DNA of 20,390 nt from a virus, in IMG/VR virus record IMGVR_UViG_3300035183_000323, positions 1-20,390 of that record. One strand, given 5' to 3'. The notes beneath the pieces are model-generated. The model did no database searches. It was given only the letters and a program-made list of their open reading frames with translations, and was not told where the DNA came from. The translations under genes and the position numbers were made by a program. Shown piece by piece: positions 35-19,040 of the stretch. The first letter of the stretch is position 1. Every line of letters begins with the position of its first letter.

Positions 35-421
35 TTACGTCAGCAGCGCCCCCGGCGGCTGCCACCGGCGCACGGCGCGGCGGAACTGGCCGGCGTGCAG
101 CTGCTGCATGGCGTAGTGCAGGTTGAAGTTCCGCAGGAACGCGCTGGGATACCGGTGGTGGTGCCAGTACACCACCGGCTTGGTGCACAGCTCCTGCACC
201 AGCGCGTCCATCGTGGTGATCACGTCGCCGCACTGCCACAGCGGCGCGCGCCGCTTGCGCGACTGGTACAGCCGCCAGTTGAGCAGCGCGCGCCGGCCTG
301 GCACCGCGCGCGCGCCGTAGCTGCCGCGCTTATTGGCCGGCACGCCGTAGAACTTGCGCTGCCAGCCAGGCGGCGGCAGCACCTGCGTGTAGAACCAGCG
401 CCGCAGCAGTCTAGCGTCCAC
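35..421 (-). CDS. Hypothetical protein, basic, 128 aa
   Basis: I do not recognise a family. The product is 128 aa, strongly basic and rich in Arg, Trp and Tyr, with no clear membrane segment, signal peptide or zinc motif. The start is GTG at 421, eleven bases inside the end of the upstream gene (TAG at 411-413), so translational coupling to that gene is likely. The stop is TAA at 35-37. It is the last leftward gene in the window, at the distal end of the RecT/nuclease cluster, so a role in DNA metabolism is possible only by position. Composition matches its neighbours, and the opposite-strand frames here look like shadows. Confidence 0.6.
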   Translation of the reverse strand: MDARLLRRWFYTQVLPPPGWQRKFYGVPANKRGSYGARAVPGRRALLNWRLYQSRKRRAPLWQCGDVITTMDALVQELCTKPVVYWHHHRYPSAFLRNFNLHYAMQQLHAGQFRRAVRRWQPPGALLT

Positions 422-1229
422 GGCCGACCGTGCCTCTCTCCTCCTCGGCCACGACGCCGGGGATGGCCATGGCCTGGCGGGCGCTGCGCGCCTGGCCGTT
501 GAGCGCCACCATGTTGGGCGTGACGAAGTGGCCGCGCGTCGCCGGGTCCTGCGCCACCCAGCGCAGGAAGCGCGGCAGGTCCACGATGCGCGCGCCCCAC
601 CGGCCGCTGATGCTCAGGCCGGCCACCTTCGGCACCACGCCGACGTTCGCCGGCGCCGCCGGCACGTGCTGCGGCACGATGGGCGCCGCCGCCAGCTCCT
701 CGGCCGCCTCCGTGTCGCCCTGCGCCTCCAGCTCGGCCACCTCCTGCGCCACGCGCGCCGCCTCCTCTTCCTCGGCCTTGCGCTGCGCCTCGCGCTCGGC
801 CGCCTCGCGCGCCGCCTTGGCGGCGGCCTCGTACGCCACCAGGCCACGGCTGGCGGCGGCGATCATCACGTCCAGGCGCGCCAGCCGCTCGTTCTCGCTG
901 GCGCGGATGGTGGCGACCACGTTGTTCGCCGCCTTCTTCATCGGCGCGTAGTGGTCCACCACCGCGCGGCGGCGCTTCTTCAAGTCCACCACCAGCGAGC
1001 CCACCACCTCGTACTGCTCCGGCGTGTCCACGCGCAGCGCCGGCTGGCGCTGCTGCAGGTCCAGGCCGTGCTCCTGCGCCAGCTGCGTCTGCACCTGGTC
1101 GATGGCCTGGTCCACCGTGTCCGTGTTGATGACCGTGGTGACCTCCCCGCCGCTGGCCTGCAGCAGGCGCAGCGCCTGCTCCGTCTGCGCCTGCTCGGCA
1201 GGCGTGTGGCTGAGTTCCTGCGTCGTCAT
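411..1229 (-). CDS. Coiled-coil phage protein of the recombination cluster, 272 aa
   Basis: The N-terminal third is Gln-rich. A middle region (about residues 75-105) contains a basic patch, LKKRRRAVVDHYAPMKKAAN, followed by a long Ala/Glu-rich predicted coiled coil (about 115-185). A separate C-terminal domain (about 200-262) ends in a hydrophobic strand and the motif AIPGV. Proteins with a coiled coil followed by a C-terminal module ending in IPGV are commonly encoded beside RecT-type annealing proteins in phages, but I know of no assigned activity. The ATG at 1229 overlaps the upstream stop (TGA at 1226-1228) in an ATGA arrangement. The stop is TAG. Function is unknown; a structural or accessory role in recombination is inference from position. 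Confidence 0.7.
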   Translation of the reverse strand: MTTQELSHTPAEQAQTEQALRLLQASGGEVTTVINTDTVDQAIDQVQTQLAQEHGLDLQQRQPALRVDTPEQYEVVGSLVVDLKKRRRAVVDHYAPMKKAANNVVATIRASENERLARLDVMIAAASRGLVAYEAAAKAAREAAEREAQRKAEEEEAARVAQEVAELEAQGDTEAAEELAAAPIVPQHVPAAPANVGVVPKVAGLSISGRWGARIVDLPRFLRWVAQDPATRGHFVTPNMVALNGQARSARQAMAIPGVVAEEERGTVGRGR

Positions 1230-1426
1230 GTCTCCTGTCCTCCTGCGTTGGGGGCGAGCTTGGTGCGCAGCACGCGCAGCAGCTCGTCCGCGTCCATGTG
1301 AAAGAGCGTGCCGCCCACATCGACCTCCACGTACTCCGCGTCGATGCCGAGCAGCGCCGCGATCTCGTGCTCCAGCTGCGTCATGCGGCGCAGCCAGGCG
1401 ACGGACTGCGTCTCGCGCGTGGCCAT
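1226..1426 (-). CDS. Small hypothetical protein, 66 aa
   Basis: This 66-aa acidic protein has an N-terminal helix (WLRRMTQLEHEIAALLG) followed by a short strand-like segment (EYVEVDVGGTLFHMD) and a C-terminal helix. I recognise no family. A longer frame extends upstream to 1567, but the ATG at 1426 is chosen because it overlaps the TGA of the upstream gene (1426-1428) as TGATG, the junction style used throughout this operon. The gene's TGA in turn overlaps the ATG of the next gene. The tight coupling supports it being real. Confidence 0.6.
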   Translation of the reverse strand: MATRETQSVAWLRRMTQLEHEIAALLGIDAEYVEVDVGGTLFHMDADELLRVLRTKLAPNAGGQET

Positions 1427-1692
1427 CACTCCGGCCCCGCCAGCTCGCGCAGCGCCGCCGCGCGGGCGCGCAGCCACTGTGCCGCCGGCCGGCAGTCGCG
1501 GTCGGCCGCGCAGCCGTCGTGCGCCTGCGCGCGGCACGGCCGGAAGGCGGCCAGCTTCTCCTCGCACTGGCGCGCCAGGCGCCGCAGCTCCTCCGGCCGC
1601 GCGTCGCCCACTGGCACGTGCACGTACGCGCTGCCGCGCTGCAGCAGCAGCGTGGCCGGCACGCAGTTTCTCACCAGCGCCGGCCAGCTCAC
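1426..1692 (-). CDS. Small hypothetical protein, Cys/Arg-rich, 88 aa
   Basis: The start is GTG at 1692, overlapping the upstream TGA (1689-1691) as GTGA; a longer frame to 2070 reads through low-complexity Arg/Ala sequence and looks artefactual. The 88-aa protein has a strand-like segment (TLLLQRGSAYVHVPVGD) followed by a helical Arg/Ala-rich part carrying four cysteines spread over roughly residues 43-67, which could bind a metal but form no classical CxxC pair. No family was recognised. It sits between two small genes of the recombination cluster and is probably translated by coupling. Confidence 0.55.
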   Translation of the reverse strand: MSWPALVRNCVPATLLLQRGSAYVHVPVGDARPEELRRLARQCEEKLAAFRPCRAQAHDGCAADRDCRPAAQWLRARAAALRELAGPE

Positions 1693-2258
1693 AGCAGGCC
1701 CTGGGCGCGCAGGTCGCGCAGGTCGTGCGCCACCTGCTCGATGCGCGCGGCGGCGTTGCTGGCCGCGCGGCCGTCCTCCGTCATCGCGCCGCGCAGCTGC
1801 GCCGCGTCGCGGTATAGCTGCTGCGCGGCCTGCAGCAAGGCCAGCGTGCGCCGCAGCTCGCCGCGCGGCACCTGCAGGTCGCGCGTGCTGGCGAAGTACG
1901 CCGTCCAGACGGCGGCGCGGTTGAAGTCGTGCGCGCGCTGCGCCTCCGCGTCCAGCGCCGGCAGCTTCGCCTGCGCCAGGTCGTGCGCGCTCGGCCACAG
2001 CGCGTGCAGCGCGCGGTGCAGCGCCAGGCGCCGGCCGCGCCCGTAGTCGAAGTGATCGACCGCATGGCACACGGCGTCAGCGGACGCCAGCACCTCGGCG
2101 TCCTGCTGGTCGCCCAACAGCAGGCGGCAGCGCGTCACCAGCGGCTCGGCCTCCTGCTTGCGGTGCGCCAGCCGGTCGCCGGTGCACCGCATCTCGCCCC
2201 AGCGCCGGTACTCGAACTGCACGCGCGCGATGGTGCCGTTGTCAGTCTCGACTCTCAT
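1689..2258 (-). CDS. Hypothetical helical phage protein, 189 aa
   Basis: The start ATG at 2258 is supported by a purine-rich site (GGGGAG) a few bases upstream; the longer frame to 2609 overlaps the nuclease gene and is rejected. The N-terminal 25 residues look like a small beta unit (VETDNGTIARVQFEYRRWGE). The rest is predicted alpha-helical and charged, with several His and Cys residues but no zinc pattern. No family was recognised. It follows the PD-(D/E)XK nuclease after a 32-base gap and overlaps the next small gene by four bases, so it belongs to the same transcript as recT and the nuclease. Confidence 0.65.
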   Translation of the reverse strand: MRVETDNGTIARVQFEYRRWGEMRCTGDRLAHRKQEAEPLVTRCRLLLGDQQDAEVLASADAVCHAVDHFDYGRGRRLALHRALHALWPSAHDLAQAKLPALDAEAQRAHDFNRAAVWTAYFASTRDLQVPRGELRRTLALLQAAQQLYRDAAQLRGAMTEDGRAASNAAARIEQVAHDLRDLRAQGLL

Positions 2259-2290
2259 TGTCGTTCTCCCCACTCTTGCAGTTGGGCGCG

Positions 2291-3031
2291 TTACGCCGCC
2301 AGGCGCACGCGCGCGTGGTAGGTGCGGAGCATGGCCTGCGCGTCGGCGCGGGCCTGCGCCATCTCGTCGTCGGTGTACCAGTGCACGCGGTAGTCGTCCG
2401 GCCGCAGCGCCAGGCCGACCCAGCGAGCCGGCATGAGCACGCCGCCGCTGGCCCGCATCAGCATCTCGTAGAACGCCAGCTGGTACACGGTGGCCGGGTC
2501 TACGTCGTTGGTCTTGATGTCCAGCAGCGTGCGCACGCCGCGCAGGAACCGCAGGTTGTCCGGGCGGCCGGTGAGGCCGAGACGCGGACAGGTGAACCGG
2601 CGCTCCCACCAGCAGCTGCGGCCGGTGGCGCTGTTGGCCTTGAACTTCCGCCAGCCGCGCACGTGCGCCGCGATCTCAGCGTCCACGGTGCGCTCGTCCA
2701 GTGCGCCGGTGTCGTCCAGCTCGCAGGCGCGGTGCAGCGCCTGGCCGCGCGCCAGGTAGAAGTCGGCCGACGCGCCGGGGTGGTCGGGCGGCGGCTGGCG
2801 GAACCCGAGCACGGCCAGCACCGTAGTGACGCGGGCGATGCCGGCCTGCGGCGCCGGTGGCGGCTTGCCCACCGGCGCCTGCGCCAGCGCGTCGTACAGC
2901 TCCACTAGCATGCGGCATCGCGCCAGGTAGCTCTCGTGGAGGTCGTGGTTGACGGCGCCAGGTGCGGTGATGGCGCGTGCGTCCTCCACCTCGCTGGCGT
3001 ACCGCTCCAGCAGCGGGTGCACGCGCGCCAT
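2291..3031 (-). CDS. PD-(D/E)XK (RecB/Cas4-like) phage exonuclease
   Basis: This is a 246-aa nuclease of the RecB/Cas4-like PD-(D/E)XK superfamily, expected to resect double-stranded DNA ends to make 3' single strands for the neighbouring annealing protein. Visible motifs are ARGQALH near residue 100 (the RecB-family G-x3-H element), GRPD with D158, the catalytic strand LLDIKT with D171 and K173, and YQLAFY with Q184. No four-cysteine Fe-S arrangement of the true Cas4 type is seen, so a viral exonuclease is the better call. ATG 3031 lies one base from the TAA of recT (3033-3035), which implies co-translation. Placing a nuclease directly after an annealing protein is the standard two-gene recombination module (compare lambda exo/bet and RecE/RecT). 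Confidence 0.82.
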   Translation of the reverse strand: MARVHPLLERYASEVEDARAITAPGAVNHDLHESYLARCRMLVELYDALAQAPVGKPPPAPQAGIARVTTVLAVLGFRQPPPDHPGASADFYLARGQALHRACELDDTGALDERTVDAEIAAHVRGWRKFKANSATGRSCWWERRFTCPRLGLTGRPDNLRFLRGVRTLLDIKTNDVDPATVYQLAFYEMLMRASGGVLMPARWVGLALRPDDYRVHWYTDDEMAQARADAQAMLRTYHARVRLAA

Positions 3032-3032
3032 G

Positions 3033-4205
3033 TTACGCGAGCGCCTGCTGCAGGTAGTCCGCGAACTGGCGCCCCTGCTCCTCGGTCAGGTGATACCAGT
3101 CCGGCGGCGTGTTCTGCGTGAAGCAGCCGGCCATCGCGTCGCGCCAGGCGCCGCGATAGGACGACTTGTCCAGGCGGTCCACCAGCCACTCCACCTTCAT
3201 CAGCGTCACGTTGCTGATGCCGGCGGTGTAGATGGTCTTGCCGCGCAGCTTGCAGGCGCGCGTCAGCGCGTCCGTGGCGGCCAGCGGCATCTGCGGCGGC
3301 ACGTACTCGGCCTCCTGCTGCTGGTCCTGCTGCGCCGCGCCACCCGCCTGGCCGGCCTCCATGCCAGGCAGCGTGGTCTGCCGGTCGTCGGCCGGCGGTG
3401 GCGCCTCGGGGCAGTCGCTCAGGTGCTCCTCGCCGTCCACGACGCCGCAGCCGCCGCAGAAGGTGGCCGAGTGCCCGTCGTCGATCACTTCGGCGTCCTG
3501 CGGCTCCGGCGCCGCCGCCCGGCGCGGCTGCGGCTGCTGGACGGTGCGCGGCGCCGGCCGCTCGTCGTCCGGCGTCACGTCGTTCAGCCCGGTGTCGTCC
3601 AGCAGCGTGTCGGTGATGGCCAGGCCCTTGAGCACGTCGGCCGCCGCGTTGCGCGCGCAGAAGGCGCGCGCGCGGCACTGCAGCATGCGCGCCTCGTGCT
3701 GGCGGTACGTGTCCTTCTGCATGAGGCCGGCCTTGGTGGCCATCTCTTTGGTGTACGTGACCACCGTGGCGCGCGGGTAGCCGACGCGCTTGATCTCGCA
3801 CCGCGCCTTGCCGGTGCGCAGGATGTCCTCCAGGTCGTCCTCCAGCACGTACTCGATGATGTCCTTGCGCGACTGCAGGAGGCCGAGCACCAGGTCGCCC
3901 CAGATGCTGGCGCGGCCCTTGATGACGCAGATGTTCTGCAGCGCGTTCATCGGGCTGACGCCGATCTCGAACCCCCACTGCACCGCCACCATCACGTCGG
4001 CCGGCTTGCCCCGGAAGTGCTCGGGCAGCAGGCCGCTCTTGGCCAGCTCCGTGCAAAACCACTTCATGTCGTCGATGGTGCGCACCTGCACGCCGCCGAA
4101 GGTGAGCACCTGCATCTGCGCCGGTGCGTCGCTGCGCACGGCGGGCAGGCTGCTGGTGGCCGTGGCCTCCGGGGCGGTGGTCCGCTGCTGCTGTTGCGTT
4201 GCCAT
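3033..4205 (-). CDS. recT: RecT-family single-strand annealing protein with zinc-knuckle-like tail
   Basis: This 390-aa protein promotes annealing or strand exchange in phage recombination. The RecT-like core spans about residues 35-200 and contains the typical segments AVQWGFEIGVSPMNALQNI and a region around IKGRASIWGD. The start ATG at 4205 has GAGGAG upstream; the longer frame to 4505 overlaps the preceding gene and is rejected. After the core comes a Pro/Gln-rich linker (about 210-310) holding a possible zinc knuckle, C250-x2-C253-x7-H261-x3-C265, then a compact C-terminal domain (about 310-390). Those extra parts make it longer than typical RecT proteins of about 270-300 aa. The next gene is the partner nuclease. 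Confidence 0.85.
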   Translation of the reverse strand: MATQQQQRTTAPEATATSSLPAVRSDAPAQMQVLTFGGVQVRTIDDMKWFCTELAKSGLLPEHFRGKPADVMVAVQWGFEIGVSPMNALQNICVIKGRASIWGDLVLGLLQSRKDIIEYVLEDDLEDILRTGKARCEIKRVGYPRATVVTYTKEMATKAGLMQKDTYRQHEARMLQCRARAFCARNAAADVLKGLAITDTLLDDTGLNDVTPDDERPAPRTVQQPQPRRAAAPEPQDAEVIDDGHSATFCGGCGVVDGEEHLSDCPEAPPPADDRQTTLPGMEAGQAGGAAQQDQQQEAEYVPPQMPLAATDALTRACKLRGKTIYTAGISNVTLMKVEWLVDRLDKSSYRGAWRDAMAGCFTQNTPPDWYHLTEEQGRQFADYLQQALA

Positions 4206-4237
4206 GTTCTCTGCTCCTCTTGGTTGGCCGCCGCGCG

Positions 4238-4546
4238 TCAGTGCGTGGCGATCGTGTAGGCGAAGCGGCCGGTGGCCGCGTCGATGGTCTTGGTCACCAG
4301 GTCGTTGCGCATCAGCCGGGTGAGCGCGTTGTTGATGTCCTGCGGCGTGTGCTTGCCGGCCAGGTGGCGGCGCAGCTGCGCGATGGTCATCGGCCGCAGG
4401 TGCGGGGCGCGCCGGTGCGCCTGCGTCATCAGCGCCAGCTCGGCGTAGACGGCGCCGGCCAGGCCGGTCATCTGCACGCGGCCGGTGCCGTGGCAGCGGG
4501 CGCACGGCACCGAGGTCGGTGCTCCGTTGGTCTTTGTGGTCGTCAT
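4238..4546 (-). CDS. Putative winged-helix DNA-binding protein with CxxCxGTG motif, 102 aa
   Basis: The N-terminus carries C15-A-R-C18-H-G-T-G, the CxxCxGxG pattern of DnaJ-type zinc knuckles, but only once, so zinc binding would need a partner molecule. Residues 50-102 look like a winged helix: helix TIAQLRRHLAG, recognition-type helix DINNALTRLMRNDLV, then a short strand pair ending in RFAYTIATH. ATG 4546 is chosen over an upstream ATG at 4651 because AGGAAAGGAG precedes it at good spacing. It lies just upstream of recT in the operon. A local transcription regulator is plausible but inferred only from the fold guess. Confidence 0.6.
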   Translation of the reverse strand: MTTTKTNGAPTSVPCARCHGTGRVQMTGLAGAVYAELALMTQAHRRAPHLRPMTIAQLRRHLAGKHTPQDINNALTRLMRNDLVTKTIDAATGRFAYTIATH

Positions 4547-4631
4547 AGCTCCTTTCCTTCTGTCGCGGCGCACCTGCGCCTTGGTGGTGTGCGTGGTGTG
4601 CTGGTCGCCCAGCAGGAACGTGCGCGGCTGG

Positions 4632-5645
4632 CTACGCGCTGGCTGCGGCATCGTCGGCTTCCTCCTCCAGGTTGATGGCGCGGCGCGGCGCGTCGGTGCG
4701 CGCCATGCCGGCCAGCTGCTGCGTGAGCGTGGCGAACTCCTCGCGGAGCGCGCCGCGCAGGTCGTCGTTGTCGCGGATCATCTCGGTGTCCACGCCGTCC
4801 AGCAGCTGCTGCGCCTGCTGCGCCAGGTTGGCCAGCTCCTCGCTGTTGGTGACGTTGCGGCTGCTGAACTGCCGCAGGAAGGTGGTGACGCGCTCCAGGC
4901 GCGCGCCGTAGAACTTCTTCTTCTTGCCGCTGGCGTCGGTCGGCTCCAGCGCCCGCGTCAGCCCCTGCACCATCTCGTGCATGGCCACCGCCAGGCCGTC
5001 CTCCACCTCCTTGGCCGCGTCCTGCAGCTGCGCGGTGATGCGCGCGCGCTCGCGCTCGTACAGGCCGCTGCGCAGGTGGCGCAGCGCATCCGGCACGTCG
5101 AAGGACAGCGGCAGCCAGTCGAAGTAGAAGGCGGCGGCCACCTTGTCCTTCGGCGGGTGGTCGGCCGCGTTGGCCAGCGTGCCCAGCTTCGCGTCGCTCT
5201 CGGCGCAGCGGTCCTCGTACACCGCCAGGAACGCCGTGATGAGCGCCTGGCGCTGCTGCTTCTTCTCCTCCAGCCAGGCGTACACCTCGTCCAGCTCCGC
5301 GATGGCGATGGGGTAGATGCCGGCGCCGGCGATGGTGGTGCGCAGCTGCCGCTCGTCCAGGTAGCGCCGCACTTCGCCGTCCAGGTGGCAGATGGCGTCG
5401 TACTCCGGGCAGTCGAGCACCTTCTTGCTCACGCTCACCATGCGCGGGTCGGCGTCCGTGGCGACGCCGCCGTTGTCGTACGCCTCCTTCGCCTTGTCCT
5501 CGCGCGCCACCTGCACCGCCTTGGCCTTGCGGCGCACGCCGGGCTTGCCGCGCGAGACGCGCAAGAAGACGGCGCGCTGCCACGCCTGGCTCGGCTGCTG
5601 CGTCACCTCCGTGCCGTTGCTGCTGCTGTTGCTCTCGGTCGTCAT
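4632..5645 (-). CDS. Phage protein, possibly DUF3150-like, 337 aa
   Basis: The start ATG at 5645 has a GGAGGAGAC site upstream; a longer frame to 6011 is not supported. The N-terminal 25 residues are polar and likely disordered. The body is mostly alpha-helical, with the segments CPEYDAICHLDGEVRRYLDE, a Gly/Pro loop (AGAGIYPIA), and AWLEEKKQQRQALI before a long helix. This helix-loop-helix order is reminiscent of DUF3150 proteins, which phages and plasmids often encode near AAA+ ATPases. A KKKKFYGARLERV segment near residue 240 is basic. The family assignment is tentative and no catalytic motif is visible. It lies between the small genes after DUF2997 and recT. Confidence 0.6.
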   Translation of the reverse strand: MTTESNSSSNGTEVTQQPSQAWQRAVFLRVSRGKPGVRRKAKAVQVAREDKAKEAYDNGGVATDADPRMVSVSKKVLDCPEYDAICHLDGEVRRYLDERQLRTTIAGAGIYPIAIAELDEVYAWLEEKKQQRQALITAFLAVYEDRCAESDAKLGTLANAADHPPKDKVAAAFYFDWLPLSFDVPDALRHLRSGLYERERARITAQLQDAAKEVEDGLAVAMHEMVQGLTRALEPTDASGKKKKFYGARLERVTTFLRQFSSRNVTNSEELANLAQQAQQLLDGVDTEMIRDNDDLRGALREEFATLTQQLAGMARTDAPRRAINLEEEADDAAASA

Positions 5646-5686
5646 GGTCTCCTCCTGCCTGCGTTTGTGGTTGTGGGTGGGTGGGG

Positions 5687-5929
5687 CTACAGCTGCGCCA
5701 GGCGCGGCTCCAGCCAGTCGCGCTCGGCCTGCAGCGCCTGGAACCGGAACGGGAACGGTCCCAGCACCGGCCCGTTCACCGGCGCCAGGTCGGCCGTCCA
5801 GCGGCCGTCCGGCGTCGGCTCCACGTGGCTGGCGCGGCGCAGCTGCACCTGGCCGTGCTGGTACAGGCCGGCCAGGTCGTCGTCGTGCAGCAGGCGCACC
5901 GCGCCGCTGCGGGTGATACGGACGCGCAT
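5687..5929 (-). CDS. Small phage protein, 80 aa
   Basis: This compact 80-aa protein begins MRVRITRSGAVRLLHDDDL, has a central strand (GQVQLRRASHVEP), and ends in a conserved-looking segment (NGPVLGPFPFRFQALQAERDWLE). Short proteins with an RASHVEP-like motif and a GPVLGPF-like motif recur in phage genomes as uncharacterised genes; that is recollection, not a search. ATG 5929 overlaps the upstream TGA as TGATG, and AAGGAG stands eight bases upstream; the adjacent GTG at 5932 is an alternative start. The ribosome site lies at the edge of the inverted segment described at 5943-6033. Confidence 0.65.
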   Translation of the reverse strand: MRVRITRSGAVRLLHDDDLAGLYQHGQVQLRRASHVEPTPDGRWTADLAPVNGPVLGPFPFRFQALQAERDWLEPRLAQL

Positions 5930-6267
5930 CACTGTCGCTCCTTACGTGTGGGAGCCGAACGTGCAGGTGGTGGTGACGCACCTGCAGCAAGGCCACCTGC
6001 CCGAGATGCACTGCTGGGTGGCGCTGGCGCGTAGGAGAAGTGGGTGTCGCTCACGCCGTGGTCCTGCTCGGGCCGCAGGCGCGGCCACGACGCGCTGCCG
6101 GCCTGCAGCCAGACATCGGTGTAGCCGGCGTCCTGCAGCGCGAGCACCATCTCGGCGGCCAGGTACAGGCACGCGCCGTCCGCCGGCACGTCGGGGTACT
6201 TCGCGTGCACGCGGTCGCGCACCAGGCGCACCAGGCCGTCCTGCTGCGGGGTCGTCTGCTGCTCCAC
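5929..6267 (-). CDS. Phage hypothetical protein, C-terminal third apparently inverted, 112 aa
   Basis: Residues 1-77 read as a normal globular protein (ACLYLAAEMVLALQDAGYTD, then AGSASWPRLRPEQDHGVSDT and HFSY). After HFSY the frame degenerates into Ala/Pro/Ser/Arg sequence to the end. On the plus strand, bases 5943-6033 encode YVWEPNVQVVVTHLQQG followed by HLPEMHCWVALAR, the kind of continuation expected after HFSY. Flipping that segment gives one 112-aa protein running HFSY-VWEP...VALAR-KERQ to the same TGA. The start is GTG 6267, with GGAGG eight bases upstream. It is a member of a family of uncharacterised phage proteins as I remember them. The present reading frame stays open, so an altered protein may still be made. 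Confidence 0.6.
   Translation of the reverse strand: MEQQTTPQQDGLVRLVRDRVHAKYPDVPADGACLYLAAEMVLALQDAGYTDVWLQAGSASWPRLRPEQDHGVSDTHFSYAPAPPSSASRAGGLAAGASPPPARSAPTRKERQ
5943..6033. other. Apparent ~91-bp inverted segment inside a gene
   Basis: The segment encodes sensible protein only on the plus strand, while its flanks encode on the minus strand. The ends carry an imperfect inverted repeat: CTCCTTACG at 5938-5946 and CGTAGGAG at 6030-6037, with a one-base bulge. The exact breakpoints are ambiguous within the shared TACG/CGTA. Because inversion keeps length, the downstream frame and stop are unchanged. Whether it is a fixed mutation, a switching segment or an assembly error cannot be told from one sequence. 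Confidence 0.7.
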
Positions 6268-6269
6268 GG

Positions 6270-6461
6270 CTACGCCTCCTCCTTCACCTCGACCGTCTCC
6301 TGCGCGTAGTAGTCGTCGGTCTTGGTCTCGCTGGTGGTGCGCCCCAAGGCGCGCTCGATGCCGGCGGCGAAGGCGTCGCAGCCGGTGCCGCAGATGCCCT
6401 CAACCTTGGTCGTCACCGCGCCCTTCGGGCTGATGGTGACGCGCAGCTTGCGGTCGCTCAT
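6270..6461 (-). CDS. DUF2997 family protein, 63 aa
   Basis: The 63-aa product begins with a beta hairpin (KLRVTISPKGAVTTKVEG), then ICGTGCDAFAAGIERALG and an acidic tail ending EVKEEA. The order strand, SPKG turn, strand, G-x-x-C, helix ending in ALG matches DUF2997, a family of unknown function found in cyanobacteria, other bacteria and phages. ATG 6461 overlaps the upstream TGA as ATGA. The stop is an ordinary TAG. A DUF1257 gene and a Ycf46-like ATPase lie just upstream in the same operon; these families tend to occur together, so the three may act jointly. Confidence 0.72.
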   Translation of the reverse strand: MSDRKLRVTISPKGAVTTKVEGICGTGCDAFAAGIERALGRTTSETKTDDYYAQETVEVKEEA

Positions 6462-6646
6462 CGGTTCATCTCCTCGTGTGCGGCGCGCAGGCACTGCTGC
6501 ACGCAGGTGGTGGTGGGCGTGAACTGCGCCTGGCAGATGCGCACGCACGCCTCGTGGTCGATGGCAGCCAGCGCCAGGCGCGCCACCTCGCCGGCGGTCA
6601 CAACGGCCACGGCCAGCGCCGTGGCCACCAGCAGCGCGCGCCACAT
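6458..6646 (-). CDS. Exported or membrane-anchored micro-protein with twin CX3C motif, 62 aa
   Basis: Residues 2-18 form a hydrophobic segment (WRALLVATALAVAVVTAG) that could be a signal peptide or a single membrane anchor. The rest would face the periplasm or exterior and carries C34-x3-C38-x9-C48-x3-C52, two CX3C pairs suited to a helical hairpin closed by two disulfides. ATG 6646 overlaps the upstream TGA as TGATG; GTG 6649 is an alternative. No family was recognised. It is an unexpected membrane protein inside an otherwise cytoplasmic gene block, between a beta-rich protein and DUF2997. Confidence 0.6.
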   Translation of the reverse strand: MWRALLVATALAVAVVTAGEVARLALAAIDHEACVRICQAQFTPTTTCVQQCLRAAHEEMNR

Positions 6647-7026
6647 CACTGCACCGTGTCGCTGCCTGGCGTCTTGGCGATCAGGCTCTGTGGCTGGTCC
6701 TGCTCGATAGGCGGCCGGTCGGCGTGGCCGGTGAGCATGTGATGGATGCGGCTGAACTGCTCGCTCACCTTGTCCGCGAACTGGCCGGCCAGGTGCGGCG
6801 GCATGCCGACGCCGAGGCCCGTGTCGTGGCCGGCCGCGAGCGCCACCATGGACAGCAGCGTCGCCTGCAGGCCGTTCACCACGCCTTGCGCGTCCATCAG
6901 GCTGAGCGTGACGACCTGGTGCTGGCCGCCGTCCAACGGCAGCACCAGGTCCACGACCGGCTTGCCGTCGTCCGTGACGCGGCCGAGCACGGTGATGTTC
7001 GGCTTCTGTGCCTGCGTCGCGCTCAT
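6646..7026 (-). CDS. Hypothetical protein, 126 aa
   Basis: The first half looks beta-rich (NITVLGRVTDDGKPVVDLVL and QHQVVTLSLMDAQG), followed by a helical middle and a Pro/Gln-rich tail that is probably disordered. I recognise no family. ATG 7026 overlaps the TGA of the DUF1257 gene as ATGA and the TGA overlaps the next ATG, so it is coupled on both sides and belongs to the Ycf35/DUF2997 block. It could be a third, unrecognised partner of that set, but the sequence gives no direct sign of this. Confidence 0.6.
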   Translation of the reverse strand: MSATQAQKPNITVLGRVTDDGKPVVDLVLPLDGGQHQVVTLSLMDAQGVVNGLQATLLSMVALAAGHDTGLGVGMPPHLAGQFADKVSEQFSRIHHMLTGHADRPPIEQDQPQSLIAKTPGSDTVQ

Positions 7027-7538
7027 CCCAGCACCAGCTCCAAGTCGCCGTTGGCCAGCGTCTGCACCTCCTGCACGTTCAGCCCCTGCGCCAGCGCCTC
7101 CTGCAACACCACCTCCTTGGCGTACTGCTGCATGAGCAGGCCGGCGTCGTGGCCGATCTTCTCGGCCAGGCCGAAGCCGCCGCCCCAGGCGTCCCACTGC
7201 AGCAGGTAGCCGTCCACGCCGTCGCGGCGGCGGCAGACGCCGATCTCGTACGGCAGGTCCTGCATGCCCTGCGCGGTCCACTCGCCGGTGGCCGGGTTGT
7301 AGAACTGCGCGTCATGCGGCACCTCGCGGTCCCGCGCCAGGCGCAGCACGCCGCTGTCGCACTGGCCGGCGTCCTCGCGCGTGAAGCCCTGCGGGAACAC
7401 GTGACCGTGGCCGACGAGGCGGCCGTACCAGCGATATGTCGTCTGGTCAGGCGCGTACTCCAGGCCCAGCGCCTGCGCGGCGCGCACCAGGCACTGCAGG
7501 TCCTTCACCTCGATCTCGATCTGCGCGATGTGGCTCAC
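7023..7538 (-). CDS. DUF1257 (Ycf35-like) family protein, 171 aa
   Basis: The N-terminus SHIAQIEIEVKDLQCLVRAA followed by LGLEY matches the DUF1257/Ycf35 family, which usually begins with a short strand SHF..I.T.I.D and a leucine-rich helix. The middle holds YEIGVCRRRDGVDGYLLQWD and a Gly-rich turn (GGGFGLAEKIG); the end has helix and strand YAKEVVLQEALAQGL..DLELVL, again family-like. The function of Ycf35 is not established; it is named from plastid genomes and is also present in cyanobacteria. The start is GTG 7538 with AGGAGGTAGAC directly upstream, which decides it over the longer frame. The nearby Ycf46-like ATPase and DUF2997 fit a known association. Confidence 0.75.
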   Translation of the reverse strand: MSHIAQIEIEVKDLQCLVRAAQALGLEYAPDQTTYRWYGRLVGHGHVFPQGFTREDAGQCDSGVLRLARDREVPHDAQFYNPATGEWTAQGMQDLPYEIGVCRRRDGVDGYLLQWDAWGGGFGLAEKIGHDAGLLMQQYAKEVVLQEALAQGLNVQEVQTLANGDLELVLG

Positions 7539-7540
7539 GT

Positions 7541-7756
7541 CTACCTCCTGTGGTTGGGGCAGCCGCGCTCGTGCGCGGCGATGCCGTTGAGGACCGCAGC
7601 CTGGCACTGGCTGCAGCGCACGGCGTACGTGCCGGTGCTGCGGTCGTAGGTCGTCAGGTCAAAGCCGGCGGCGCGCAGCTGCGCGCCACGGCTGCGCGGC
7701 GTGCGTCCGCGCGCCGGCCACTGCTGGTGCGCCATCGCTGGCCAGGCGCGCGTCAC
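7541..7756 (-). CDS. Small zinc-finger-like protein, 71 aa
   Basis: The C-terminal half contains C48-x2-C51-x10-H62-x3-C66 with an aromatic/basic strand before it (YDRSTGTYAVRC), a plausible single C2HC zinc finger. The N-terminal 25 residues are basic and Pro/Trp-rich. The GTG at 7756 overlaps the ATPase stop as GTGA; an internal ATG at 7735 would give a 64-aa form and has no better ribosome site. It lies between the AAA+ ATPase and the DUF1257 gene with one to two bases between reading frames. It could be an adaptor or nucleic-acid binder; no closer assignment is possible. Confidence 0.55.
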   Translation of the reverse strand: MTRAWPAMAHQQWPARGRTPRSRGAQLRAAGFDLTTYDRSTGTYAVRCSQCQAAVLNGIAAHERGCPNHRR

Positions 7757-9255
7757 TGCACGCTCACGCGCCGGCCGGCCGCGCGCTGCGGCGCCTTGGC
7801 GGCGGTGGCCATGTAGACGCCGCCGTAGCTGGCGCTCAGGAAGCGGCCGTTGGCGCTATCGCGCAGGCGCTGCACGCCGTCGGGGTCCTGGCTGGTGGCC
7901 GGCACGATCCGCTTCTCGGCCTCGGCCATGGCGCAGGACAGCTCGTAGGCGCGGTCGCAGCAGTCGCGGATGTTCGCGCTGCTCCAGCCCTCGCTGCGCG
8001 CCACGCACTGGTCCAGGTTCGCCGTCAGGTTGCGCCGCTGCAGGTGCAGCGACCAGACGGCGGCGCGCTCCTCTGGGTCGGGCAGGTCGAAGAAGTACGT
8101 GCCCATCGAGAAGCGCCGCCGCAGCTCCGGCGACAGGCTCTCCAGTCTGTTGCAGGTGGCGATGAAGACCGCCCCGGTGCCGGCGATGGCCTCGATCACC
8201 TGCAGCGCGGCGCGCGTGTTGGCCTCCGTGCTGCCCACCGTGCCGCTCTTGAGCGAGCCGAGGTCCAGGCTCACGGTCGGCTTGCCGAAGGTGGCGCCGG
8301 CCGCCGCCGCGACCAGCGTCTTGCCGGTGCCGGGGTGACCGAGGAACAGCAGGCCGCGCGCGCGCATCCGCTCCATCGCGGTGAGCAGCGCCTGGTGGAT
8401 GTACGCGCTGGTGCCGCTGTCGTTGCCGCCGGCCGCGCCGGCCATGCCCTTCTCTACCTCGTCGATGAACACGTAGCAGCTGGCCGGCACCGGCCCGTCC
8501 TGCAGCTGCGACAGCAGCGACTTGATGTGGTGCAGGCCGCCGATCTGCTCGAACGTCGGCCCGCCCCACTCCAGCGTCAGGCCGGGCGTGGCGTTGACGG
8601 CCTGGCGCTTGTGCAGCCACAGCGCGTCCATGTCGTAGCCGCTGCTGCGCAGCGCCAGCGCCATCACCTGCTCGGCGTCGAACGCGGCCAGGCCGCGCGT
8701 GGCCGCCACGACGTTGGGCACCTGGTCCTCGCGCACCGCCAGGTCGGCCGCCGCGCACAGCTCGCGCGCGATGGTCTCAAGCGCCGCGTCGTCCGGCAGC
8801 TTCTCCTCCAGCACCAGCACGTCGTGGCGCAACACCGGCGGCAGCGTGGCGTCGCAGCCGAGCGCCAGCATCATGCGGTGGTTCTGCTTGTACGCCTCGC
8901 GCAGGTTGGCCACGCCTTGCTGCACCGCCGGCACCTGCCAGAACAGGTGCAGGTTCTGCGCGCAGAGCAGGCTGCCAGGCGCCAGGTGCTGCGCGGCCAG
9001 GAGCATGGCCACCGGCTCCTTCGTCATGCGCGCGTCGGCCAGGCCGGCCGCCCGCAGCGCCTCCGGCAGCTCGGCCTGCGCCTTCTCGTTCAGCGGCAGC
9101 AGGCCCTGCTGGCAGTTCCAGGCGACCTTGCTCACGTCGCCGTTGCCCACCTGGTCCAGCACGGCGCGCGTCGCGGCGCCCACGTCCGGCGTGATGAGCG
9201 CCACCAGCGGCACGCTCACCGCGCGCGCCTTCGTTACGGTCTTGATCCACGTCAT
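7753..9255 (-). CDS. Ycf46-like AAA+ ATPase with Walker B preceding Walker A, 500 aa
   Basis: Residues 1-225 resemble the N-terminal domain of Ycf46-type ATPases (PLVALITPDV, VAWNCQQGL, LFWQVPAVQQGVANLREAY, then a LPPVL..VLVLEEKLP segment). FEQIGGLHHIKSLL at 235-248 is the usual entry to the AAA+ core. Normally Walker A follows; here YVFIDEVEKGMAG (261-273, Walker B) and the helix SGTSAYIHQALLTAME come first, then GHPGTGKT (306-313, Walker A), a strand VSLDLGSL, VGSTEANTRAAL, sensor-1 ATCN (366-369), candidate arginine finger R379-R381 and a sensor-2-like WSSANIRDCC (424-433). All key residues are present, so it is likely active. The start ATG has AAGGAGGAG upstream. Confidence 0.85.
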   Translation of the reverse strand: MTWIKTVTKARAVSVPLVALITPDVGAATRAVLDQVGNGDVSKVAWNCQQGLLPLNEKAQAELPEALRAAGLADARMTKEPVAMLLAAQHLAPGSLLCAQNLHLFWQVPAVQQGVANLREAYKQNHRMMLALGCDATLPPVLRHDVLVLEEKLPDDAALETIARELCAAADLAVREDQVPNVVAATRGLAAFDAEQVMALALRSSGYDMDALWLHKRQAVNATPGLTLEWGGPTFEQIGGLHHIKSLLSQLQDGPVPASCYVFIDEVEKGMAGAAGGNDSGTSAYIHQALLTAMERMRARGLLFLGHPGTGKTLVAAAAGATFGKPTVSLDLGSLKSGTVGSTEANTRAALQVIEAIAGTGAVFIATCNRLESLSPELRRRFSMGTYFFDLPDPEERAAVWSLHLQRRNLTANLDQCVARSEGWSSANIRDCCDRAYELSCAMAEAEKRIVPATSQDPDGVQRLRDSANGRFLSASYGGVYMATAAKAPQRAAGRRVSVQ

Positions 9256-11146: not shown

Positions 11147-11163
11147 CTGCCTGCCTTTCTGTG

Positions 11164-11215
11164 GCCGTGGCGCGCAGGCCGCCGTGCTGGCCGTGGCGCG
11201 CAGGCCGCCGTGCTG
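11164..11215. repeat. Perfect 26-bp tandem duplication
   Basis: Two identical 26-base units lie head to tail at 11164-11189 and 11190-11215, in the 93-base gap upstream of the DAHHD-motif gene. Part of the second unit (GCGCAGGCC at 11198-11206) pairs with GGCCTGCGC at 11219-11227, so the transcript could form a strong hairpin. No start codon or coding frame depends on it. It may be a recent slippage event. Confidence 0.9.
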
Positions 11216-11239: not shown

Positions 11240-11636
11240 TCACGCCGCCTTGCGCGCCTTGCTGGCCTTGGCCTTGCCGCCGGCCAGCTCATGCACCAGC
11301 GCCTTCAGCTCCTCCACCTGCGCCTCCAGCGCCGCGATGCGCGCCGCGCTGCCACCGCCGCCGACCGCGCGCACCACCGTGCTCGGGTCGCCCTGCATGC
11401 GCGCCTTCTCGTCCGTGGTCAGCTCGTTGCGCCGGTACTCCGATCATATCGTCGTCCTCGGCATAGTCTACGGTCGCCCATCGCTCGCTGTCGATCGCCA
11501 GCCGCTGGCGTCGTGCCGCCTGAGTACGCCGGCCAGACGGTGCAGCTCGCATACTATCGCGTGCCCGACGGCATCGTGCGGGTCACTATCGACCACGGCG
11601 AGCCGACAGGTAGCGATACAGGTGTGCGCGCTGCAT
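11240..11636 (-). pseudogene. Coiled-coil protein gene broken by an internal inversion and a frameshift
   Basis: Three pieces look like one protein of about 131 aa. The start (ATG 11636, MQRAHLYRYL) runs into TAG TGA after 16 residues. If bases about 11516-11606 are flipped, the frame continues PPEYAGQTVQLAYYRVPDG, IVRVTIDHGEPT, RRQRLAIDSERWATVDYAED, DDMI. A one-base difference (an extra G within the GG at 11440-11441, minus sense) then separates this from EYRRNELTTDEKARMQGDP and a coiled-coil tail rich in Glu, Ala and Lys, ending at TGA 11240-11242. As the sequence stands, only a 16-aa peptide and possibly a 52-aa C-terminal fragment from ATG 11398 (GAGAAGG upstream) could be made. No family was recognised. 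Confidence 0.6.
11516..11606. other. Apparent ~90-bp inverted segment inside a broken gene
   Basis: The plus strand encodes PPEYAGQTVQLAYYRVPDG and IVRVTIDHGEP, while flanking sense sequence is on the minus strand. Flipping the segment removes two stop codons and joins both flanks in frame. Ten bases at 11512-11521 pair with 11601-11610 at seven positions, a weak inverted repeat, so breakpoints are uncertain by a few bases. Its size is about that of the segment at 5943-6033. Confidence 0.6.
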
Positions 11637-18615: not shown

Positions 18616-19040
18616 GCACGAAAGGAACCAGCGCCTTCTCGGAGGCACGGCGGGCGCAGTGGCGCGCCTACTTCCAGCGCCGCAAGGCGCAGCGCCGCGA
18701 CTACGCGCTGCGCTACCTCGGCGGGCGCTGCTGTCACTGCGGGCACGAGTACACCGGCCGCAACGCGCAGGACTTCGAGTTCGACCACCTGCGCGACAAG
18801 GTGGCCGCGATCACCAACGCGCTCACCTGGCGGCTCTCGCGCCTGCTAGAGGAGTTGAACAAGTGCCAGCTGCTGTGCGTCCGCTGCCACTACGTGAAGA
18901 CCTGGGGGCATCCGCCGCGGCGTGTGGTACGACGCAAACGACAACCCGGTCTACGACAGGTCGGCGGCGTGTGGTACGACGCAAACGACAACCCGGTCTA
19001 CGACGACGACGAAGGAGGAACGCAGGCATGGAGTGGTTGA
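18612..19040 (+). CDS. HNH endonuclease-like protein with duplicated tail region, 142 aa
   Basis: A basic N-terminus (FQRRKAQRRDYALRY) precedes an HNH-type zinc core: C41-x-C43 in CCHCGHEY, D58-H59 in FEFDHL, and C89-x2-C92-H93 in LLCVRCHYVKT. This pattern of two cysteine pairs around a D-H is common in phage HNH nucleases that nick or cut DNA during replication or packaging. The C-terminal 45 residues include an out-of-frame reading of the first copy and an in-frame reading of the second copy of a 41-bp repeat (see 18917-19004). ATG 18612 is chosen for its ATGA junction; ATG 18591 is the alternative. Confidence 0.72.
   Translation: MSTKGTSAFSEARRAQWRAYFQRRKAQRRDYALRYLGGRCCHCGHEYTGRNAQDFEFDHLRDKVAAITNALTWRLSRLLEELNKCQLLCVRCHYVKTWGHPPRRVVRRKRQPGLRQVGGVWYDANDNPVYDDDEGGTQAWSG
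18917..19004 (+). repeat. 41-bp direct repeat with 47-bp period in the HNH tail
   Basis: Bases 18917-18957 and 18964-19004 are identical, separated by AGGTCG. The period of 47 is not a multiple of three, so it shifts the frame: one copy reads RRKRQPGLR and the other VWYDANDNPVYD. With one copy removed, the HNH frame would run through to the TGA at 19070-19072, which overlaps the ATG of the ParB-like gene. Confidence 0.9.

Follow-up and report, generated by a model that had tools for sequence, protein, structure and literature searches.

The sequence analysed here, referred to as the window, is the 20,390-nt IMG/VR virus record IMGVR_UViG_3300035183_000323, which may be a fragment. Segmentation by codon usage places genes on the minus strand without a break from position 1 to about 11,500, apart from a plus-strand island inside one of them. 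This disrupted gene (5929..6267, minus strand), recognised by its open reading frame and by matches to an HMM of its family, starts with GTG, ends in KERQ-TGA and encodes 112 aa as read. Its product runs VEQQTTPQQ...GACLY...QAGSASWPRLRPEQDHGVSDTHFSY and then APAPPSSASRAGGLAAGASPPPARSAPTRKERQ-TGA. The next gene in the operon (5687..5932, minus strand, 81 aa) begins with an ATG at 5929 or a GTG at 5932, and the ATG shares one base with the TGA at which the disrupted gene stops. AAGGAG, the minus strand of 5938-5943, is a good Shine-Dalgarno sequence for the ATG at 5929. The start of this next gene sits where homologues of the disrupted gene have their C-terminal third; the gene itself has no relatives in an IMG/VR search and no family match.

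On its other side the disrupted gene is adjoined by minus-strand genes at 6270-9255. These comprise a small gene (6270-6461) that resembles DUF2997 by eye, a DUF1257 gene (7023-7607) and an AAA ATPase gene (7753-9255). At the viral locus L034, too, the gene of the family has homologues of the DUF1257 protein and of the AAA protein next to it. Recombination genes are located on the minus strand within 411-4505: an exonuclease-like gene (411-1229) matching phrog_10477, a PD-(D/E)XK exonuclease gene (2291-3031) and a gene for a RecT-like single-strand annealing protein (3033..4505; phrog_561, 9.2e-30).

The window also contains two exact short duplications. A 41-nt near-tandem duplication (18917-18957 and 18964-19004) with a 6-nt filler and a spacing of 47, which is not a multiple of 3, is located at the 3′ end of an HNH endonuclease gene, whose frame would otherwise continue to a stop that overlaps the ATG of the following gene. 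A 26-nt tandem duplication (11162-11213) is found just upstream of the minus-strand gene 11146-10331. Both are fresh micro-rearrangements on the same contig, in addition to the one described below.

Evidence for an inverted segment at 5943-6033

At the level of the given sequence, a segment of about 91 bp (5943..6033) within the disrupted gene is confirmed to be inverted, and the signal is far above chance. A preliminary description had proposed this inversion from a minus-strand open reading frame, a plus-strand peptide and flanking repeats, all of which are present, and the proposal is borne out by a homologue HMM applied to both strands and by codon usage. The plus strand of the segment encodes YVWEPNVQVVVTHLQQGHLPEMHCWVALAR (YVWEPNVQ...LPEMHCWVAL), with which the gene continues and which contains the conserved motif LPEMHxW.

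A degenerate DNA pattern for LPEMHxW retrieved 12 IMG/VR loci, half of which (6/12) encode proteins of the type CL...QAGxxxW...F...LPEMHxW in one continuous frame. A profile search then yielded 23 viral loci (L015-L037) and one locus in the bacterium Cerasicoccus arenae (L038), giving 24 homologues. The LPEMH pattern was taken from the plus-strand peptide and some homologues were found by it; the upstream motifs that the homologues share with the minus-strand part are absent from this pattern. L016, which has LPELHCW, and others were reachable only via an upstream QAG pattern. A further candidate from the IMG/VR search with the N-terminal part, L001, was discarded as a chance match in an unrelated protein.

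An HMM built from the 24 homologues, with the window left out, matches the minus frame from model position 6 to about 77 (to 87 in a six-frame scan, i-E 6.6e-17), up to the residues HFSY, so that residues 8-79 of the disrupted protein correspond to model positions 6-77. The plus strand of the segment covers positions 76-107 with 33 bits on its own (i-E 1.4e-8 when the window is scanned in six frames). At the protein level, the model thus passes from the minus to the plus strand at consecutive positions, which is the ancestral order reversed between collinear flanks. As claimed in the preliminary description, the flipped segment continues the protein: the score rises from 59.8 bits as read to 102.2 bits, and the frame joins the TGA stop. 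The present C-terminal tail, rich in Ala, Pro and Ser, scores -2.4 bits alone and is foreign to the family. None of the 24 homologues carries such an Ala/Pro-rich C-terminus, and the plus-strand peptide matches the same family model as the minus-strand part.

Codon usage gives evidence that is independent of the homologue HMM. A Viterbi segmentation trained on the other genes of the contig detected a single clear plus-strand island, at 5941-6027, among the minus-strand genes; one more call, of 84 nt near 11,521, carries almost no weight (+0.5 bits). Read in the plus frame, the segment has a score of +23.7 bits, as opposed to -28.8 bits in its present minus frame. According to a breakpoint scan, the limits of the segment are uncertain by a few bases, within about 5941-6035. 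The exact breakpoints are ambiguous because of an inverted repeat at the borders, and flipping any of several near-equivalent segments around 5943-6033 results in ...HFSYVWEPNVQVVVTHLQQGHLPEMHCWVALAR(R/K)ERQ-TGA.

An open plus frame spans 4485 to 6710, and instead of being an inverted piece the segment could be a plus-strand gene in its own right or an antisense overlap with a function. However, plus-strand coding potential stops sharply at both edges of the segment, and in the family model that fits the minus-strand protein the peptide takes up at the very next position. We have rejected a plus-strand gene on account of this continuation and regard such a reading as hardly credible.

Protein family and the missing C-terminal third

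The family to which the disrupted gene belongs is not covered by any Pfam or PHROG family at a meaningful E-value, and the flipped-back protein has no usable match in Pfam, PHROGs, INPHARED or plasmids. The motifs of the family include a Cys in CLY, a His in LPEMHxW and an Asp in IVD. In alignment A3 the residues C30, H96, W98, D113, W130, W140 and Y159 are invariant, and the C-terminal part of the family contains invariant Asp, Trp, Pro, Trp, Tyr and Ala residues.

For structural comparison, a model was predicted for L016 (pLDDT 90), which shows the highest identity to the window protein among the homologues found (48% in the best segment). The model resembles PDB 2hly (Foldseek 5e-4, Z 9.7). 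Other than 2hly, fold searches gave just middling similarities, with weaker resemblance to transglutaminases, arylamine N-acetyltransferases and PeiW (Z 4-5) and, more broadly, to many Cys-His-Asp enzymes (Z 4-6). The invariant Cys is situated at the start of a helix, the His on a strand (HxW) and the Asp on the next strand, an arrangement that fits a Cys-His-Asp triad. On the basis of the predicted fold and triad, the ancestral gene would have belonged to a transglutaminase/papain-like Cys-His-Asp family. The likeness lies in the predicted fold of L016 and in the family-invariant Cys, His and Asp; in contrast, the family shows no significant sequence similarity to known Pfam, PHROGs or PDB families, and the copy in the window differs further in lacking the His as read and the Asp in either orientation.

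Flipping the segment back does not restore a complete protein. The flipped-back product covers model positions 6-106 of 179, whereas all 24 homologues reach positions 167-178, and only 9 residues follow LPEMHxW compared with 67-124 in the 24 homologues. About 65-90 C-terminal residues of the homologues are therefore absent, including the Asp of the predicted triad and everything after it. An HMM scan did not find the missing C-terminal part in any of the six frames of the window. Because the His is lost as read and the Asp is absent in either orientation, the product of the window gene is probably inactive, as judged from its sequence.

Inverted repeat, open frames and a possible switch

The borders of the segment carry an imperfect inverted repeat. 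The left arm, CTCCTTACG (5938..5946, minus strand CGTAAGGAG), contains the likely Shine-Dalgarno sequence AAGGAG; the right arm, CGTAGGAG (6030..6037, minus strand CTCCTACG), is part of the HFSY codons. The bounding repeats named in the preliminary description are thus present, but they amount to 8 bp with a 1-nt bulge and are near chance (P 0.02-0.24 against random site pairs in this GC-rich window, according to the slack allowed). As one arm holds the Shine-Dalgarno sequence that serves the next gene and the other lies within the HFSY codons, their similarity can be incidental.

It is also true, as had been pointed out, that the frame is open in both orientations, but this is expected at the GC content of the contig: in 20,000 simulated flips of 91 nt in its genes, 74% stayed open (58-93% by phase). 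High-GC antisense sequence rarely has stops, which accounts for the two open frames.

These features bear on the suggestion that two alternative C-termini could be expressed. Here, a host or phage recombinase would flip the 91-bp segment between the short repeats, making the gene a phase-variable intragenic inverton. Such elements, including intragenic ones, have been described (PMC11892184), and the locus resembles them in that a gene-internal segment lies between inverted repeats and is open in both orientations, which end at the same TGA. The intact coding sense of the segment would also fit. However, invertons usually have inverted repeats of 10-40 nt (PMC11892184), and the repeat found here is too short and too imperfect. 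No integrase or resolvase was detected on the contig; profiles of tyrosine and serine recombinases (PF00589, PF00239) had no match in the 20.4-kb record, though this may be incomplete and the host could supply the enzyme. Inverted homologues were not observed (0/24). A single orientation is seen, from a single contig, and the gene remains truncated after flipping back, so that neither orientation is complete. A DNA hairpin acting as the switch was rejected, the hairpin being not unusual (z -0.32), and an Rfam search gave no match.

The expression of two C-termini is hence unsupported, the flipped-back protein being truncated, the repeat near chance, a recombinase not found on the contig and none of the 24 homologues inverted; we consider an inverton at this site quite improbable. 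A shade less probable still is the more specific proposal that the invertible segment toggles a truncated transglutaminase-like protein between the LPEMHxW form and one with an unrelated tail rich in Ala and Pro; the repeats would be minimal, at 8 bp, and the recombinase would come from a gene elsewhere.

Origin of the inversion

We favour, with a probability of roughly 70%, a single replication or repair error, by template switching or mediated by microhomology, that left a broken transglutaminase/papain-like gene and perhaps deleted its C-terminal part in the same event. The ancestral gene would have encoded a protein with the conserved Cys (CLY), His (LPEMHxW) and Asp (IVD), and about 91 bp would have been reversed in the phage or in its sequenced copy. 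Microinversions are documented whose flanking inverted repeats are short (at least 3 nt) and often imperfect, and they have been attributed to template switching or to microhomology-mediated break-induced replication (PMC8755829, PMC8604942). In the four-point template-switch model, the polymerase leaves its template, briefly copies the other strand backwards and returns, which produces a local reverse-complement copy (PMC7954356). The two short duplications, likewise fresh micro-rearrangements of this contig, also speak in favour of such an error.

At this locus, the nascent strand may have paired through CTCCT, which lies within the HFSY codons, and AGGAG, from the Shine-Dalgarno sequence preceding the next gene, and the polymerase would then have copied the opposite strand for about 90 bases before returning. 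The RecT-like annealing protein (phrog_561) could have favoured pairing at such short homologies. The C-terminal 65-90 codons or so would either have been deleted in the same event, with the return taking place further along, or have been lost before it. A polymerase that came back past the distal limit of the copied stretch would cause inversion and deletion together and would explain the reversed segment and the lost C-terminal third in one step. The truncation may accordingly have accompanied the inversion or preceded it. Neither ancestral DNA nor a close relative was found in IMG/VR by queries with the N-terminal part, the downstream 337-aa protein, the AAA protein, a degenerate DNA pattern of the segment or the next gene, although near-identical records may escape such searches. 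The event is probably recent, as the segment has kept its coding sense intact. Kept open by high-GC antisense alone, the gene is most likely dead or dying.

Comparison with documented microinversions (PMC8755829, PMC7954356, PMC8604942) revealed a similar short reversal, short imperfect repeats (near chance in the present case), no need for a recombinase and a single orientation. In the human-chimpanzee set, however, microinversions comprise 17-33 nt (PMC8755829), against 91 bp here in a phage genome, and spacer inversions in yeast needed arms of more than 9 bp (PMC8604942). The inversion described here was also probably accompanied by a loss of about 200 bp, which may or may not belong to the same event. 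Against a one-off error stand the undamaged coding sense of the segment and the flipped-back frame that joins the TGA in frame, both as in a reversible element; if a deletion intervened, the in-frame junction has a chance of 1 in 3.

The chimera might also be absent from the phage, having arisen in whole-genome amplification, in preparing the library or in assembling the metagenome. Inverted chimeras are a known product of strand-displacement amplification; the record is a single contig with no near relatives in the collections searched, and the two exact short duplications are found on it too. However, typical amplification chimeras have one inverted junction, unlike the two found here, which are clean, lie 91 bp apart between collinear flanks and leave the rest of the reading frame undisturbed. 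An artefact appears rather unlikely to us. An artefact and true phase variation are both less likely than the one-off error.

The locus is a clearly documented case of a microinversion in a phage gene, recognised purely from the sequence. It also illustrates that two open frames are no evidence for a programmed switch at high GC. If both orientations did occur, the segment would represent an unusually small phage inverton. Beyond the rearrangement itself, the inversion points to a family of phage proteins, absent from Pfam and PHROGs, for which a Cys-His-Asp fold is predicted.
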